From positions 62,001 to 126,000 of the forward strand of contig JAUSJA010000026.1 of the NCBI GenBank assembly GCA_030647905.1: a stretch of DNA of 64,000 nt, written 5' to 3'. The DNA comes from Gemmatimonadaceae bacterium. Its GTDB lineage: Bacteria; Gemmatimonadota; Gemmatimonadetes; Gemmatimonadales; Gemmatimonadaceae. Position 1 is the stretch's first letter; each line of letters begins with the position of its first letter. The position numbers were made by a program, and so were the translations under genes. Positions 1 to 7,100 of this stretch are shown piece by piece. The notes below the pieces were generated by a model that worked only from the letters and a program-made list of their open reading frames with translations, did no database searches and had not been told where the DNA came from.

Positions 1-1367
1 TGTTCTGCGCTCAACGTGCCGGTGAAGCGCACATCGGCTGCGGCGCCATCAGTGCGCCGGTCTTCGACGACCAGCGCCACGCCATAACTCGCTAGCAATG
101 CCTGCAAATCGTCCAGGCAACCGCGGGGAAGTGAGATATGCGCGGGGAGTTCCTCGGCGCAGCTGACAATCCGTGGTGTGTCGTGGGTTGAGAGGCGCAG
201 TCGCTGCTTCTGGTAGAATTCGGGGTTCTGGAACGCCGCCAGTTGCTTGATCTGCGTGATGAGTGACGAGGGTAGCCCAACCAGGGGAACGAAGAGTCGC
301 TGGGCGATCACTGCGGCGACGCATTCGGGGACGGGATCCGTGAGGCGACGCGATTGCGACTCCATCGGCGATGGAGCGAGTTCCCATGGTTGATCCTCCG
401 GCTGTGTGTCCGTCTCGCGGACGGCCCGTACGCCGAGGATGCGTCCGCTTTTCTCCGCCTCTCGGGCGAGGAGCTCGAGCGCGGCAGCCGTATGTCGCTC
501 AACTGACGCGAGATATTCCCATTGATCGGCCTGCGGTTCCCACCGATCGTTGAGGAAGAGTGTGTTGCCCTGTTCGGCTGCGCTGCGTTGCAACGGCAGC
601 GCGATCAGGTTTCCGAAGCCGCCTTTGGGTAGGGTGTCCTGATTCGGGAAGAGCCGGTCGTACGACGTGAGCCGGAGCTGGTGCCGGCGCACCATCGTCT
701 CGGTAATCAGAAAGCAGCCCACGGTGCGCGCGGTGCGAGCGGGCACCGGACTGGAGAAAAAAAACCACACATGCGCACCCCTCCCGGAGCGCGACCGCTC
801 GACTGACGGCTCAAGACCGAAAGTCCGACACGTCTCCGCAAAGGCCGCTACATCATCGCGCCAGCCGTCGTCATCGAAGTCGGCCGCGAGGAACCAGCAC
901 GTGTCGTCCGTCAGCAGCGGGTATACGCCGATGGTGTGCCGGCCGCGCAGGTGATCTTCAATCACGCGATCCGTGACAGGGAGAAACTCACGATTCAGAG
1001 CGTCTCCGCCCCGGAGCAGTGGCTTCTCGCGAACGCCCCGGAACCATTCGTTGGCGCACGCCGGGGCATAGCCCGACCGATTGAGTTTCGGGTTGTGCCA
1101 GAACTTCGGATAGACGTCTTCGCGGCCACGAAAGAGCGTGCGAAACCGGGAGATTTTCTCTGGAACGCTCAGTCGGGATGATGTCCCCGGCGGCGACGGT
1201 GCTGGTACTGAAGGACGCACCCCCAGCGCGACGGCCTGCCGTTCACGCAGATCCAGCAGGTGCGCTCGAGCTTCGGCTAACTCGTGGTCCAGCCGTGCTA
1301 CACGCGCCTCCTGTTCAGCGAGCGCCGATTCGATACCGGGCGGGTCGTCCTCAGAATTCATATCCAT
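1..1367 (-). CDS. TOTE conflict-system primase (AEP domain), partial at left edge
   Basis: This is the first 455 codons of a larger gene that continues past base 1. After a charged coiled-coil-like N-terminus (residues about 12-47) comes an archaeo-eukaryotic primase domain. The catalytic acidic pair lies in FLAADFDDD (D163 and D165) and the conserved histidine in SRSGRGAHVWFFF (H199), followed by SYDRLFPNQD and GFGNLIALPLQ, all typical of the TOTE primase family. The visible part ends at FTGTLSAEQ, where family members enter a superfamily 2 helicase, so the missing part is probably the helicase. In known TOTE proteins this pairing is inferred to act on nucleic acid in conflict between genomes. 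The frame is open across the T8 run at 764-757. The start is ATG 1367 or ATG 1361, 23 bases after the DUF2442 stop, so co-transcription with the DUF4160-DUF2442 pair is likely. Confidence 0.85.
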   Translation of the reverse strand, partial: MDMNSEDDPPGIESALAEQEARVARLDHELAEARAHLLDLRERQAVALGVRPSVPAPSPPGTSSRLSVPEKISRFRTLFRGREDVYPKFWHNPKLNRSGYAPACANEWFRGVREKPLLRGGDALNREFLPVTDRVIEDHLRGRHTIGVYPLLTDDTCWFLAADFDDDGWRDDVAAFAETCRTFGLEPSVERSRSGRGAHVWFFFSSPVPARTARTVGCFLITETMVRRHQLRLTSYDRLFPNQDTLPKGGFGNLIALPLQRSAAEQGNTLFLNDRWEPQADQWEYLASVERHTAAALELLAREAEKSGRILGVRAVRETDTQPEDQPWELAPSPMESQSRRLTDPVPECVAAVIAQRLFVPLVGLPSSLITQIKQLAAFQNPEFYQKQRLRLSTHDTPRIVSCAEELPAHISLPRGCLDDLQALLASYGVALVVEDRRTDGAAADVRFTGTLSAE

Positions 1368-1390
1368 CGGGTGGACTCGAACTCTGAGGC

Positions 1391-1855
1391 TCAAGCCGCC
1401 CGCGTCGCGGAGGGCTTGCGAGGCCGACCCCCACGGCGCCCGTTCCGCCTCGAGGCAGCTGCTTTCGCCGAACTTCGCGCACTCCCGCCCTTCTTACCCA
1501 CTTCTGCCATCCAGCGGCGCGTACCGAAGACCCCGCCTAGCAGCGCCGGAACGTAATGGTCAATCCCAAGCGCCGGCCAATGCAAGCCTGATCCGGGTCC
1601 TTCGATCTCGATTTGACCCAGTTCTTCGGGCTTCCTGCCTTCAAGGCCTTGTATCAGGGCGCGCGGAATGGCCACTTCGATACCAGTTGAGAGCAGCAGA
1701 ACGACATGATCTCCCCGGGCACGATACTTCGCCTTTATGACCCGAATGCCCCGCTCTTCCTGACTCCTGGCTTGTGCAATCGCCTTCTCGATCTGAGCGT
1801 CGTTTGCCAATACCTTGGCACTTGTCCTCACGTGTGCGGTTCTGAGCTTTGTCAT
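1391..1855 (-). CDS. DUF2442 domain protein with AT-hook-like C-terminus
   Basis: A DUF2442 domain occupies roughly residues 30-110 and includes the family's closing pattern around GLHWPALGIDHYVPALL. A basic, Gly/Arg-rich tail ends in RRGGRPRK, which resembles an AT-hook and suggests DNA contact. The ATG at 1855 overlaps the TGA of the DUF4160 gene as ATGA, and a GGGAGG at 1871-1866 serves it; a start at 1873 is also possible. DUF4160 and DUF2442 genes recur as neighbours in bacterial genomes and are predicted toxin-antitoxin-like partners, but neither function is established. Here the pair sits directly upstream of the TOTE primase gene, so the C-terminal tail may make this the DNA-binding, autoregulating member. 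Confidence 0.8.
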   Translation of the reverse strand: MTKLRTAHVRTSAKVLANDAQIEKAIAQARSQEERGIRVIKAKYRARGDHVVLLLSTGIEVAIPRALIQGLEGRKPEELGQIEIEGPGSGLHWPALGIDHYVPALLGGVFGTRRWMAEVGKKGGSARSSAKAAASRRNGRRGGRPRKPSATRAA

Positions 1856-2106
1856 CGGTGCATTGCCTCCCATGCCGCGACTAGCATATCAAAGTTGTCA
1901 GCTGCCAAATCCAGAATGTGTCGCACCTGATTTCGTTTCGCTTTCCCTGGCTGTACTGCATCCTTTCGATTGGCCAGAGTCACAGTTGCATTCTCATTCA
2001 AATCGAAAACGACCTCGATTCCCTGGTAGAGACCATGCACATGTCGAGGCGTATGGTCCTGCGGATACACTTTGAAGCGCACTCCGCCTATTTGTATCGT
2101 GGCCAC
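1852..2106 (-). CDS. DUF4160 domain protein
   Basis: This 84-residue protein matches the compact DUF4160 family. It has the N-terminal pattern IQIGGVRFKVYPQDH, then TPRHVHG, and a C-terminal helix ending LVAAWEAMHR. The start is GTG at 2106. Only eight bases separate a strong -10 box from this GTG, so transcription should begin within about three bases of the start codon, giving a leaderless or nearly leaderless mRNA. It overlaps the next gene (DUF2442) by four bases. The pairing suggests a two-component module of the toxin-antitoxin type, with this protein as the small partner; that role is inferred from context, not demonstrated. Confidence 0.82.
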   Translation of the reverse strand: MATIQIGGVRFKVYPQDHTPRHVHGLYQGIEVVFDLNENATVTLANRKDAVQPGKAKRNQVRHILDLAADNFDMLVAAWEAMHR

Positions 2107-2114
2107 GAGTTTCC

Positions 2115-2143
2115 AGTATAACCTAAGCGGCTTAGGTTTTCAA
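2115..2143 (-). promoter_or_regulatory. Promoter of the DUF4160-DUF2442-TOTE unit
   Basis: On the minus strand a -35 box TTGAAA (2143-2138) and a -10 box TATACT (2120-2115) are separated by 17 bases, close to the sigma-70 consensus. The predicted transcription start is at about 2109-2107, next to the GTG start at 2106. Confidence 0.65.
2120..2138. promoter_or_regulatory. Palindromic operator candidate within promoter spacer
   Basis: AACCTAAGCGGCTTAGGTT is a perfect inverted repeat with 8-base arms around CGG. It fills the space between the -35 and -10 boxes of the DUF4160-DUF2442-TOTE promoter, where a bound repressor would block RNA polymerase. A related site lies in the same place in front of the second module at 3206-3222. 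Confidence 0.6.
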
Positions 2144-2262: not shown

Positions 2263-2628
2263 TCAGAATTCGTATCGCATCCGGACCCAATAGTGCCAAT
2301 CCGCGACCGCCCGGGTTGTCTGGGAATCGGTGGCAGGGATGGGCTTGAGTTGAGCCAGCGGCACCGCCAGACTCCTCTTCTCCCACCGGATCGTAACAAA
2401 TATCTCGTGCGCACAGACATCCTCGGCGGGCATCCGAATGACATCGATTTCGTCGTTCACCCGGAGCGGAGAGATTGACCGCTTAGCGATACAGGTCGCG
2501 GTGAACGGAAAGCGGAGCTGCTCGTGGAGGTAATTGTACCAACTCATCGCCCGTTCCTCGGCGCCATAAGCGTCAACGACGATCTCCTCGATTATTCGGC
2601 GTTCGCGATCTGTGTCCTGTTTTGGCAT
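2263..2628 (-). CDS. CcbP-like calcium-binding family protein
   Basis: A 121-residue acidic protein that matches the CcbP family (first known as a cyanobacterial calcium-binding protein). Recognisable stretches are IIEEIVVDAYGAEERAMSWY, PFTATCIAKRSISPL, EIFVTIRWEKRSLAVPLAQL and the closing ADWHYWV. It begins with ATG at 2628 behind GGAGA, ten bases after the second DUF2442 gene, so it is probably the last gene of that module. Homologues often sit beside small accessory genes of this kind. Calcium binding is a family property and was not tested from the sequence; the role here is unknown. Confidence 0.75.
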   Translation of the reverse strand: MPKQDTDRERRIIEEIVVDAYGAEERAMSWYNYLHEQLRFPFTATCIAKRSISPLRVNDEIDVIRMPAEDVCAHEIFVTIRWEKRSLAVPLAQLKPIPATDSQTTRAVADWHYWVRMRYEF

Positions 2629-2638
2629 GGTCTCCGCG

Positions 2639-3067
2639 CTACGGCCTTACTTTCGGGCGGCCTCCCTTTGCCCCGTTGGCCCGCGCTGCGCGAGCTTTCG
2701 CCGGACTTCGCGACGCGCCTCCGCTACGCCCCAGTAGCCGCATCCAACGACTGCTGCCCACTATGGTTTCAACCACACCTGCAACACTCAGGTCTGCATC
2801 CAACTCCTCCCACATCAACCCTTCTCCGGACGGGCTTACCTCGACCTTGGCAAGGTCGGCGTCAGATGCCCTTTGCAGACCAAGGGAAAGTTTCGCTGGA
2901 AAGCTGAATATTGCGCCGTTCGTCAGCGCCACTGTAACGCGCTTCGTTGCCCGGCTGTATCGAGCGCTTCTGGCACGCGGCTCGGTTGCCTTTGCAAGAC
3001 GAGCCCGCTCTCTGGCAGCGGGAATCTGAGCCAGTATCTGGGCGTCAGTCAATTTGTTATCCGCCAT
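2639..3067 (-). CDS. DUF2442 domain protein, second copy
   Basis: A 142-residue paralogue of the DUF2442 protein at 1391-1855. It carries ALTNGAIFSFP and SGEGLMWEELDADLSV in the domain and a basic tail ending GAKGGRPKV, again AT-hook-like. A GGAGG-type ribosome site precedes the ATG at 3067. The start overlaps by 11 bases the original end of a DUF4160 gene (TAA at 3059-3057), but that partner is now broken. If the pair is a toxin-antitoxin module, this copy has been left without its partner and may survive as a solitary regulator. Confidence 0.78.
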   Translation of the reverse strand: MADNKLTDAQILAQIPAARERARLAKATEPRARSARYSRATKRVTVALTNGAIFSFPAKLSLGLQRASDADLAKVEVSPSGEGLMWEELDADLSVAGVVETIVGSSRWMRLLGRSGGASRSPAKARAARANGAKGGRPKVRP

Positions 3068-3196
3068 GATGCTTCCTCCAATATTCCATGAGCGCGTCTG
3101 CGTTCATCTCGACGATCCAACGTGAGCAGGCCCATGCTCCCTTGGGGGCAGAAAGACCTTGATCGCAAAACCATCAATTCGAAGGACGGTCGGCAT
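3057..3196 (-). pseudogene. DUF4160 remnant with internal deletion and frame change
   Basis: The N-terminal DUF4160 signature MPTVLRIDGF...HGPAHV reads from ATG 3196, then the frame runs out at a TGA at 3106-3104. In another frame the family C-terminus IVEMNADALMEYWRKHHGG follows at once and ends with TAA at 3059-3057, overlapping the next gene as expected of an intact pair. Compared with the intact copy at 1852-2106, about 35 central residues are missing at the join near 3115-3110 and the two ends are out of frame. The gene is therefore a deletion pseudogene. A surviving truncated peptide of about 30 residues is possible. Confidence 0.78.
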
Positions 3197-3205
3197 CGAG
3201 AAATT

Positions 3206-3222
3206 AACCCAACGGTTGGGTT
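3206..3222. promoter_or_regulatory. Second palindromic operator candidate
   Basis: AACCCAACGGTTGGGTT is a perfect 7-base inverted repeat around CGG, ending ten bases upstream of the DUF4160 remnant start. It shares the AACCYAA-CGG-TTRGGTT pattern with the site at 2120-2138. On the minus strand it is followed by TTAATT, a plausible -10 box directly before the start codon, and preceded by a weak TAGAAC-like -35. Confidence 0.5.
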
Positions 3223-3468
3223 CTAGCAACTGGTAAAGGTTCCACAGGCCACGAGGGCATACCCTTCGCCACGTCTTGGCGAGCTGCGTGATGTAGGAGA
3301 AAAGGAGGGATTCAGAACAAGCTTTCATTGGCTTGGATCATCGTTCCGCTGCGGCGCGCCGAGAACGAGGGAAGCGCTTCAGCCGCACGGGAGTCCAATC
3401 TCAGCGGCCGTTCCGGCTGAGCGTCATCCAGGGTTGCTCGAGTAGCCTTACGCTGTGGGACGCCTGCC
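3223..3468. other. Intergenic stretch with no recognised gene
   Basis: Nothing in either strand resembles a known protein, RNA or repeat. The open frames here are short and have no family signature. It separates the second DUF module from the antitoxin gene and may hold degraded accessory sequence. Confidence 0.4.
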
Positions 3469-3720
3469 TCACTCCGATTCTGCTTTTAAGCCGTTCGGCG
3501 CTTTGGTCGCGTTTTCAGATAGGCTCGCAGCGCTGACCGCCCTGGAGTTGGGAAACGCAGCAGCGAGGTCGGGGTCCAAAACAATCAGATGGGCGCCATT
3601 TGAAAAGTGCCTGGCGTATTTGTTCCGAACACCGCCGCGGAAATCGTATTCCACCCGCATCTCATTCGCGGAGTCAGACGTTGACTTCTTCGCGCGAGAC
3701 GGTCTGGAACTCTTCTTCAT
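3469..3720 (-). CDS. CopG/BrnA-like antitoxin
   Basis: The predicted 83-residue protein contains the pattern MRVEYDFRGGVRNKYARHF followed by HLIVLDPDLAAAFPNS, typical of the short antitoxins found next to BrnT-type toxins. The first 20 residues are basic. The ATG at 3720 is preceded by GGAAAG five bases away, better than the longer possible start at 3789. The reading frame overlaps the end of the toxin remnant by 47 bases. In intact loci the antitoxin neutralises the RNase-like toxin and represses its own operon; here the toxin lacks its N-terminus, so this gene may be an orphan. Confidence 0.72.
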   Translation of the reverse strand: MKKSSRPSRAKKSTSDSANEMRVEYDFRGGVRNKYARHFSNGAHLIVLDPDLAAAFPNSRAVSAASLSENATKAPNGLKAESE

Positions 3721-3886
3721 ACACTTTCCGTTCTCGACGGTTGGCGAGCCGAGCGTTGATGATTCGGATATTGTCGCCACGCTCGGCATGGGCGACGATC
3801 AACAGATGTCTTCGCCGCGACATCCCGATCAGCAGATACCGATTTTCGTTTGAGGAGTGATCGGGGTCGGGGATCGCTGACCACAT
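3674..3886 (-). pseudogene. BrnT-family toxin, N-terminally truncated
   Basis: The sequence AIPDPDHSSNENRYLLIGM, LLIVAHAERGDNIRIINAR and NRRERKVYEEE is the C-terminal half of a BrnT-type ribonuclease toxin. The usual first 40-45 residues (a WDxxK...KHGVSF-type strand and helix) are not found upstream: the frame reaches a TAA near 3930 with no matching sequence, and the first ATG is at 3886 inside the fold. The catalytic core would be incomplete, so the gene is probably dead. It is followed by the antitoxin in the normal order. Confidence 0.65.
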
Positions 3887-3972
3887 GTGGACCGTTGAAG
3901 AAATTCCAGAAAAGATGAGTCCCGATTATCTGTTACAATCAAACTGACTCACTACCGGCAGAGTTGCTGGAC

Positions 3973-4002
3973 TTGCCGATTTCCCGAATTGCATGCTATT
4001 GT
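3973..4002 (+). promoter_or_regulatory. Candidate promoter of the metH leader
   Basis: TTGCCG (3973-3978) and TATTGT (3997-4002) are 18 bases apart and would start transcription about 10 bases before the riboswitch. The match to consensus is modest. Confidence 0.35.
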
Positions 4003-4020
4003 TGAGGGAGATCCCTGACC

Positions 4021-4075
4021 CGTGGCGATTTAAAGCAACTTGCGGCCACGTTAAACATTCCGCTAAAGCGCTCCC
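4021..4075 (+). promoter_or_regulatory. SAM-II riboswitch upstream of metH
   Basis: The leader matches the SAM-II aptamer. P1 is CGTGGC (4021-4026) pairing with GCCACG (4045-4050). The conserved GATTTAA lies in the first loop, then CTTGCGGCCACG, and then GTTAAACA and the invariant CGCTAAA (4061-4067) that form the pseudoknot side. An AGC at 4034-4036 can pair with GCT at 4070-4072 as part of the pseudoknot. The motif precedes metH by about 45 bases, consistent with repression of methionine synthesis when S-adenosylmethionine is plentiful. Confidence 0.85.
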
Positions 4076-4082
4076 GCCCAGC

Positions 4083-4102
4083 GCCCACGCGTGGGCTTTT
4101 TT
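4083..4102 (+). terminator. Intrinsic terminator-like hairpin in the metH leader
   Basis: GCCCACGCGTGGGC (4083-4096) can form a short GC-rich hairpin and is followed by six T (4097-4102), just after the SAM-II aptamer and 16 bases before the metH ATG. The position suggests that it is the riboswitch expression platform. Its 3' arm (CGTGG, 4090-4094) can also pair with the 3' strand of aptamer P1 (CCACG, 4046-4050), which would give an antiterminator. Confidence 0.6.
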
Positions 4103-4118
4103 CGTATAGGTATCTCGC

Positions 4119-7100
4119 ATGACCGCTCGACCAACTGACTCGCCCTACCTCAAGCTCCTCGAGAACCGCGTCCTCATCTACGACGGCGCCATGGGGACGA
4201 GCATCCAGCGCTTCAACCTCACCCCCGAAGACTTTGGCGGCAAATCCCTCGAAGGCTGCAACGACAACCTGGTCCTCACCCGACCCGACGTCATCCAGGC
4301 AATCCACGAGTCGTTCCTCGCGGTCGGTTGCGATGTGGTCGAGACATGTACCTTCCAGTCCACTCCCCGCCGTCTGGAAGAATGGGGACTCGGTGACAAG
4401 GTTCGAGAGATCAACATCGCGGCAGCAACAATCGCCCGCGCCGCAGCCGATAACTACAGCACTCCCGAAAAACCCCGCTTCGTTGCCGCCTCGATGGGCC
4501 CGACAGGCATGCTGCCCTCGAGCTCCGACCCCGCCCTCGGCAACATCACATTCGAAGAACTCTCGCGGAATTTCCACGACCAGGCCCAATACCTCATAGA
4601 AGGCGGCGTTGACCTCCTTCTCATCGAGACGTCGCAGGACATCCTCGAGGTCAAAGCCGCGGTCGCGGGAATCGAGCAGCTCTTCGCTGAGCTCGGCCGC
4701 CGCATCCCGATCCAGGCTCAGGTCACGCTCGACGTGTCGGGCCGCATGCTGCTCGGTACGGACATCGCCAGCGCGATGACTACTCTGGAGTCGCTCGGCG
4801 TAGACGTCATTGGGCTCAACTGCTCGACGGGCCCGGAGCACATGCGCGAGCCGCTCCGCTACCTCTCCGAAAACGCGACACTCCCGCTATCGGTCATCCC
4901 GAACGCAGGACTCCCGATCAACACAGGGGTTGGCGAAGCGGTGTATCCGCTCGAGCCGGCGCCGATGGCAGAGGCGCTCGCGGAATTCGTGAAGGATTTC
5001 GGCGTGCGGATCGTCGGCGGATGCTGCGGAACGACACCGGCTCACCTCGACGCGGTGGTCAAGGCGGTGCACGCGGTGGAATCGGCCGCGACCGCCGGCC
5101 CCCAAGCCGAAGTTGGCCGGAACGGCAAGCGAACCGGACACCACCACGTCCCCCGCGTCAGCTCCGCAATGCGCGCGATCACCCTCCACCAGGACCCACC
5201 ACCCCTCCTTGTCGGCGAGCGGGTCAATTCCCAGGGCTCACGCAAGGTGAAACGCCTCCTCCTGGCCGACGACTACGAGGGAATCCTCGAAGTCGCACGC
5301 GACCAGGTGGACTCGGGCGCCCACGTCCTCGACGTCTGTGTCGCCCTGACCGAACGGGCCGACGAAGCCGAGCAGATGTCGAAAGTGGTGAAGCTGCTCT
5401 CGATGTCGGTCGAGACGCCGCTGGTCATTGATTCGACGGAAGCCGACGTGGTCGAAGCCGCCCTCGAGCACATCCCGGGGCGCGGCATCGTCAACTCCAT
5501 CAACATGGAGAACGGGCGCAAGCGCATCGAAGCGATCGTGCCCCTTGTCAAGAAGCACGGCGCCGCGGTCATCGCGCTCACGATTGACGAAGTCGGCATG
5601 GCCAAGACCCGCGAGCGGAAGCTGGAGGTCGCGAAGGCCATATACCATATAGTAGTGGACGAGTACGGACTCGCCCCGGAAGACATCATCTACGACTGCC
5701 TCACCTTCACGCTCGCCACGGGCGACGCTGAATGGATCGACTCGGCGCACGAGACGATCGAAGGCATCCGCCTCATCAAGCGCGAGCTCCCGGGCGTCTC
5801 AACGATACTCGGCGTATCCAACGTCAGCTTCGGCCTCACGGTCGAAGCCCGCTCGGTCCTGAATTCGGTGTTCCTCCACCACTGCGTCACTGCGGGTCTC
5901 GACGCGGCGATCGTCAACCCTGCCCACATCACGCCGTACGCGGAGATCTCGGAAGAGCAAAGAGTATTGGCCAACGACTTGGTCTTCAACACCCGCGCGG
6001 ACGCCCTCCAGCACTTCATCGAGTACTTCGGGGAACACAGAGGCACAGATGGCACGGATGTCACAGAAAAGGCGGACCCTACCGCCGGGATGACGGCAGA
6101 AGAGCGCATTCACTGGATGGTTCTCCACCGGAAAAAAGACGGGATCGAGGAGCAGCTTGATGCGGCAGGGGTGAGGGAAAACCCTGTACGCGTTCTGAAC
6201 GAAGTGCTTCTCCCCGCCATGAAGGAGGTCGGCGACAAGTTTGGCGCGGGCGAGCTGATACTTCCGTTCGTGCTGCAAAGCGCAGAAGTAATGAAAAAGG
6301 CGGTCAAGCACCTCGAGCAGTTTCTCGAAAAGGCCGAAGGCTACACAAAAGGCAAGGTCGTGCTCGCTACGGTTTACGGAGACGTGCACGACATCGGCAA
6401 ATCGCTCGTCAACACGATCCTCTCCAACAACGGCTACACTGTCTACGACCTCGGCAAGCAGGTCCCGGTCAATACGATCCTCGAAAAGGCGATCGAGGTC
6501 GAAGCGGACGCGATCGGACTGAGCGCCCTGCTCGTCTCGACGTCGAAGCAGATGCCGCTGTGCGTGAAGGAGCTGGACAAGCGCGGGATGAAGATCCCGG
6601 TCATGATCGGCGGAGCGGCGATCAACCGGCGCTTCGGACGCCGCGCGATGTTCGTCGAGGACGAGCGCGACTACGCCCCGGGTGTGTTCTACTGCAAGGA
6701 TGCATTCGAAGGCCTGGAGACGATGGACAAGCTCCAGGATCCGGAGCGGCGCGACAAGTTCGTCGCGAAGAATCTCGACGATGCGAAGAACGACGTCTTT
6801 CTTCACACCTCTGTCGGCAAGGACATCGCCGCCGGCGACGACGCAGGGGTGCGCAGCGACGTCGCGGCGAACAACCCGGTGCCGGCTCCGCCGTTCTGGG
6901 GAACGCGCGTGCTGCGCGACATCCCGGTTGACGAAGTGTACGATCTGCTCGACCTCGACGAGCTCTATCGCCTGCAATGGGGGGCGCGCGGGTCGGGCCC
7001 GCAGTACGATGCGACGGTGAAGAACGAGTTCGAGCCGGTGCTCGCGCGCCTCAAGAAGGACGCGGCGGAGAAGGGCTGGGTCAGGCCGGAAGCGGTTTAC

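Follow-up and report, generated by a model that had tools for sequence, protein, structure and literature searches.

Based on the whole analysis, it was concluded that the DUF4160-DUF2442 gene pair at the start of the window (the entire 64,000-nucleotide stretch of Gemmatimonadaceae DNA that was analysed) is probably, at about 0.7, an independent and autoregulated toxin-antitoxin module of the DhiTA type. It would have fallen upstream of a mobile gene encoding an AEP primase fused to an XPB-like helicase, in a variable chromosomal region, and the latter gene would be transcribed by read-through owing to its position. What looked like a new operon of a toxin-antitoxin pair and a TOTE system was thus interpreted as a toxin-antitoxin family already known, lying next to a mobile gene for which the name TOTE fails here.

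The toxin-antitoxin pair and its promoter

The following features of the window were considered:

1..1394, minus strand, 5' part of the gene for the AEP primase and SF2 (XPB-like) helicase, which continues outside the window
1391..1855, minus strand, gene of the DhiA-like DUF2442 antitoxin, a protein of 154 aa that carries the basic tail RRNGRRGGRPRK at its C-terminus; Pfam PF10387, 40.6 bits against a cut-off of 23.9
1852..2106, minus strand, DUF4160 toxin gene (DhiT-like), GTG start, 84 aa; Pfam PF13711, 35 bits against a cut-off of 23
2115..2143, minus strand, promoter TTGAAA-17-TATACT, matching at 10 of 12 positions
2120..2138, operator-like palindrome AACCTAAGC-C-GCTTAGGTT, 19 bp with perfect 9-bp arms, filling the promoter spacer

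The arrangement described in the first-pass annotation, with the pair and the primase on one strand, a 4-base overlap and a 23-base gap, was borne out by the open reading frames and the Pfam scores. The toxin gene comes first and overlaps the DUF2442 gene by 4 bp if the latter starts at ATG 1855. The gap between DUF2442 and the primase gene is 23 bases when the primase starts at ATG 1367; if TTG 1394 is used instead, the primase start and the stop codon of DUF2442 overlap as TTGA. The DUF4160 protein keeps the near-invariant residues H22, H24 and W79 in an alignment of 70 relatives. Its AlphaFold2 model was confident (pLDDT 90.8); a fold search with this model returned no solved structure at E <= 0.001, hence no enzymatic class was proposed for the toxin. 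Solved relatives of the DUF2442 antitoxin were found (3k8r and 2x8n). No PADLOC match was obtained for the pair, nor for the CcbP and BrnT genes located nearby.

The suggestion that such pairs are toxin-antitoxin modules was of the right type and had already been published under the name DhiTA (PMC8198452). In Dickeya dadantii 3937, the dhiTA genes (DUF4160/DUF2442) are co-transcribed, the DhiT toxin stops growth in both Dickeya and E. coli, the DhiA antitoxin relieves this effect, and the dhiTA promoter is repressed by the antitoxin as well as by the complex (PMC8198452). A DUF4160/DUF2442 pair of a Thermus thermophilus plasmid is a plasmid-stabilising and persistence-enhancing module; introduction of the plasmid fails if the second gene (DUF2442) is missing, the loss of that gene being the only one not tolerated (PMC12724237). 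By analogy, the pair of the window is probably a working, ordinary type II toxin-antitoxin module of the DhiTA type, and the toxicity, neutralisation and autorepression expected of it are taken from these published relatives.

It was proposed that the palindrome between the -35 and -10 elements would be bound by the DUF2442 protein, either alone or in company with the toxin, that the protein would thereby shut its own promoter, and that the promoter would open upon loss of the antitoxin. The primase-helicase would then be read from the promoter of the pair as a local by-product of its position rather than as a conserved TOTE part. The promoter scan of the region returned two sites of this kind against 1.3 expected by chance, and none that could serve as a close promoter of the primase-helicase gene itself. 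Because no such promoter was found and no more than 23 bp separate the gene from the antitoxin stop codon, it is probably read through from the promoter of the pair. A single transcript covering both the pair and the primase gene is plausible here, as a local arrangement.

The palindrome had not been recorded in the first-pass annotation. It comprises the whole 17-base spacer and one base on each side, and occurs as a single copy in the 3.1-Mb genome. The pattern ACCTAAN{2,6}TTAGGT was present at 27 places, spread over 26 of 395 genomes of the phylum. The loci available for 26 of these places were scanned with HMMs, and four sites lay about 40-60 bp before a DUF4160-DUF2442 pair, namely in this genome, G190, G320 and G083. 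As DUF4160 is present in at least 125 and DUF2442 in at least 154 of the 395 genomes, several such coincidences in ~1.5 Gb were estimated by us to be very unlikely by chance. The layout seen in the window, with the palindrome between the promoter elements before DUF4160, was found as TTGAAA-17-TATAAT in a Lentisphaeria genome from outside the phylum (L199), and a related palindrome, as judged by eye, occupies the same place in most of nine plasmid pairs, for example ACCCAAGCCGCTTAGGTT in Cupriavidus. Since plasmid-borne pairs and pairs from other phyla are also preceded by the palindrome, the motif was assigned to the toxin-antitoxin module and not to the primase.

The form of approximately AACCYAA-N-TTRGGTT lying just before the -10 element was observed at 2120-2138 of the window, in L249, L263, L265 and L199, and in the plasmid loci L272, L356-L359 and L361-L363. 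The strict motif occurred in 2 of 74 other DUF4160 upstream regions against 0 of 1305 control windows, and so it marks a DhiTA subfamily rather than the entire family. When the regions before DUF4160 genes at large were searched for any long palindrome, no enrichment over the controls was seen, the conservation being limited to the specific sequence. The palindrome is a candidate operator for repression by DUF2442, and AACCTAA-N-TTAGGTT filling the promoter spacer, as a conserved candidate operator of the DhiTA subfamily, allows a direct test of switching.

The primase-helicase gene and its upstream neighbours

The primase-helicase gene is complete and intact in the contig (G000:C26:60938-63394) with 818 codons from TTG. 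The domain scores were 306 bits for PF22548 (AEP-TOTE) and 84.5 bits for ResIII, and the translation holds the motifs ADFD, SGRGAHVW, GSGKT, DECHH and QYAGRLHR. The gene was present in 19 of the 395 genomes of the phylum and absent from every other genome of the genus among those listed. Six viral contigs carried it; no phage record matched at E <= 1e-30.

The association of the pair with AEP-TOTE genes, expected to recur within 200 bp upstream of them in distant genomes, was not confirmed. HMMs built from DUF4160 and DUF2442 loci were scanned over 100 other AEP-TOTE loci themselves, 80 from the GTDB collection (many phyla) and 20 from the same phylum; among the loci with a placeable start, 91 had at least 300 bp upstream. 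Neither domain was detected near AEP-TOTE in any of the 100 loci. About a third of the known DUF2442 loci escaped the first DUF2442 HMM, but a more sensitive one gave the same answer, and a role of the pair as a recurrent AEP-TOTE partner was rejected on these scans. Among the loci scanned, the tight pairing was found in this genome only, which is the outcome that the first-pass annotation itself had named as refuting its proposal. The pair was absent from the six viral contigs and from 13 of 14 plasmid loci scanned. The sole near case, and the only loose second instance, was a plasmid of Azotobacter salinestris (L272:1397-2051 and 2478-5385), where the pair lies 965 bp upstream of the primase-helicase and is separated from it by other sequence and a 181-aa gene overlapping the primase gene. 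The nearest relative of the pair that was found (G190; 63% and 59% identical) shares the operator, and that genome contains no AEP-TOTE gene; the pair was therefore regarded as an independent module.

A different toxin recurred in the upstream slot. Of 73 genes standing before an AEP-TOTE gene on the same strand, 20 matched AbiEii, in agreement with PADLOC and in several cases only 7 bp away, and one place further upstream AbiEi antitoxins were found in at least 10 of 54 cases. AbiEii was absent among the families listed for 45 downstream neighbours. On a tree of 90 primase-helicases the AbiEii label required eight changes, so that it is not scattered at random, nor does it belong to a single clade. 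AbiEii was seen just upstream of the primase-helicase in L042, L043, L047, L051, L054, L063, L072, L036, L017, L005, L084, L085, L273 and others. The order of AbiE and primase-helicase, often as AbiEi followed by AbiEii, was observed in Acidobacteria, Verrucomicrobia, Proteobacteria, Campylobacterota and this phylum. Other occupants of the slot were PIN toxins in two relatives of the same phylum, a weak HicB-like match in another, and Fic proteins. On plasmids it was taken by HigB with an HTH protein in Acinetobacter and by AbiEii in Arcobacter.

The broader idea that toxin-antitoxin genes precede primase-helicases thus found support, mainly through AbiE, but not for DUF4160-DUF2442. We read the primase-helicase as a mobile gene often found in places rich in toxin-antitoxin genes, with AbiE as a real and repeated partner. 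No description of the link between AbiEii and the primase was found among the literature titles listed, although the link may have been described elsewhere. A direct test of module switching is offered by the order AbiEi-AbiEii-primase/helicase, which is repeated in bacteria distant from one another.

Surroundings of the pair and rival explanations

Further features were found upstream of the pair, in a patch that also contains a BrnT gene:

2263..2628, minus strand, gene of a CcbP-type calcium-binding protein, between the two DUF2442 modules; PF11535, 125.6 bits
2637..2785, direct repeat of 149 bp, the copy at the 3' end of the second DUF2442 gene; other copy at G000:C26:59572-59720
2639..3067, minus strand, second DUF2442 gene, intact, 142 aa; PF10387, 52.6 bits
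3061..3196, minus strand, DUF4160 remnant, the partner of the second DUF2442; pieces MPTVLRIDGFAIKVF..HGPAHV and WIVEMNADALMEYWRKHHG

In the remnant, the N-terminal piece is followed by the C-terminal piece in another frame and the middle is missing; no Pfam match was obtained for it. The copies of the 149-bp repeat are 98% identical, lie 5065 bp apart and occur at only these two places in the genome, with the second copy beyond the primase. They bracket ~5 kb comprising the primase gene, the toxin-antitoxin pair and CcbP. A general insertion device at the 3' ends of DUF2442 genes was considered and rejected; none of 20 other DUF2442 loci showed such a repeat, which was therefore regarded as having arisen locally.

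The stretch upstream of metH had no match in those genus relatives with enough sequence, and in one of them (G126) the neighbour of metH is a gene found some 21 kb from it in the genome of the window. As judged from these comparisons, the region before metH is variable within the genus. A SAM-alpha riboswitch (45.2 bits, 4012-4087, plus strand) was observed directly before metH, which encodes the cobalamin-dependent methionine synthase and is followed by a homocysteine methyltransferase-MTHFR fusion gene.

On plasmids the primase-helicase often travels with TniA-TniB-TniQ or with tyrosine recombinases. In rhizobial and sphingomonad plasmids (L239, L241) it stands directly after TniB and TniQ, as if it were a part or the cargo of a Tni-type transposon. 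Three tyrosine recombinases were observed downstream of the gene in L236 and L238.

The pair may alternatively be a functional lead module of the primase-helicase, acting as a sensor, repressor or fail-safe, with derepression upon infection switching the effector on and with DhiTA as one of several interchangeable families (AbiE, HigBA, VapC-like PIN, HicB-like). The upstream frequency of AbiEii (20 of 73) with AbiEi next to it (at least 10 of 54), its absence among the listed families of 45 downstream neighbours, the eight changes on the tree, and the PIN, HicB-like, HigB and plasmid AbiEii cases all speak for such a role. However, no second tight pairing of DhiTA with the primase was found in 100 loci, defence islands are generally crowded with toxin-antitoxin genes, and many primase-helicases have transposon genes and no toxin-antitoxin gene upstream; we consider the proposal quite improbable. 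A broader form of it, in which AEP primase-XPB-like helicases constitute a cassette for defence or conflict that is widespread and headed by toxin-antitoxin modules of exchangeable kind (most often AbiE, also HigBA, PIN, HicB-like and here DhiTA), the autorepressed promoter controlling the primase-helicase and the toxin serving as a fail-safe if the effector is blocked, was judged unlikely.

It was also considered that chance alone has brought the pair and the primase together in a toxin-antitoxin patch undergoing decay, the two being unrelated in function and expression and the primase having its own unrecognised promoter or being silent. The second DUF2442 with its deleted toxin partner, the BrnT and CcbP genes, the duplicated 149-bp DUF2442 3' end and the absence of the entire stretch next to metH in those relatives of the genus that were compared are consistent with decay, yet all frames of the pair and the primase are open with intact motifs and the junction is operon-like, which makes this explanation a doubtful one as well. 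The preferred reading, an independent DhiTA-type module with positional read-through, is itself weakened by several points: a junction as tight as a 23-bp gap or a TTGA overlap is closer than a random neighbour needs, the lone Azotobacter plasmid does carry the pair upstream of a primase-helicase, the DUF4160 protein is far below the score of DhiT proper, and the strict operator motif is rare among DUF4160 upstream regions.

Comparison with known systems

The AEP region of the primase-helicase matches the CRISPR-associated PrimPol (CAPP; 7nqd, 7nqf) in sequence and scored 285 bits with the PADLOC PrimPol model, and its SF2 helicase region matches the XPB/RAD25 helicases. Unlike either of these, the protein of the window fuses both parts, and no CRISPR gene was recognised alongside.

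The name TOTE stands for TPR, OB, TBP and Effector (PMC12458937), and TBP is a defining part of such systems. The AEP domain of the window falls within the AEP-TOTE effector family (PF22548). A TPR-bearing protein kinase is located ~6 kb away (L002:411-2996). Pfam named no OB, CSD (cold-shock) or TBP domain among the flanking genes scanned, and no TBP gene (PF00352) was detected in 32 primase-carrying genomes, its own included, while archaeal controls were detected. Membership in TOTE is therefore unsafe, and the label of a TOTE conflict system given in the first-pass annotation reflects a domain name only.

The AbiE type IV toxin-antitoxin system shares with the pair the slot upstream of AEP-TOTE genes; its proteins are unrelated to those of the pair, of which it is not a part. 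The Thermus module has the same tandem DUF4160-DUF2442 genes, the second neutralising the first, but is plasmid-borne and plasmid-stabilising, and the published passage considered here does not mention a primase-helicase neighbour (PMC12724237).

With the NCBIfam equivalog of DhiT proper (NF048015), the DUF4160 protein of the window scored 17.8 bits against a cut-off of 100. By this cut-off, it is a Pfam-family relative and not an ortholog of Dickeya DhiT, and its presumed toxicity is thus deduced from a distant relative. The DUF2442 protein of the window differs from its Dickeya counterpart in being longer and having a basic tail, while both systems share the two domains, the toxin gene in first place, a short overlap and a promoter directly upstream.
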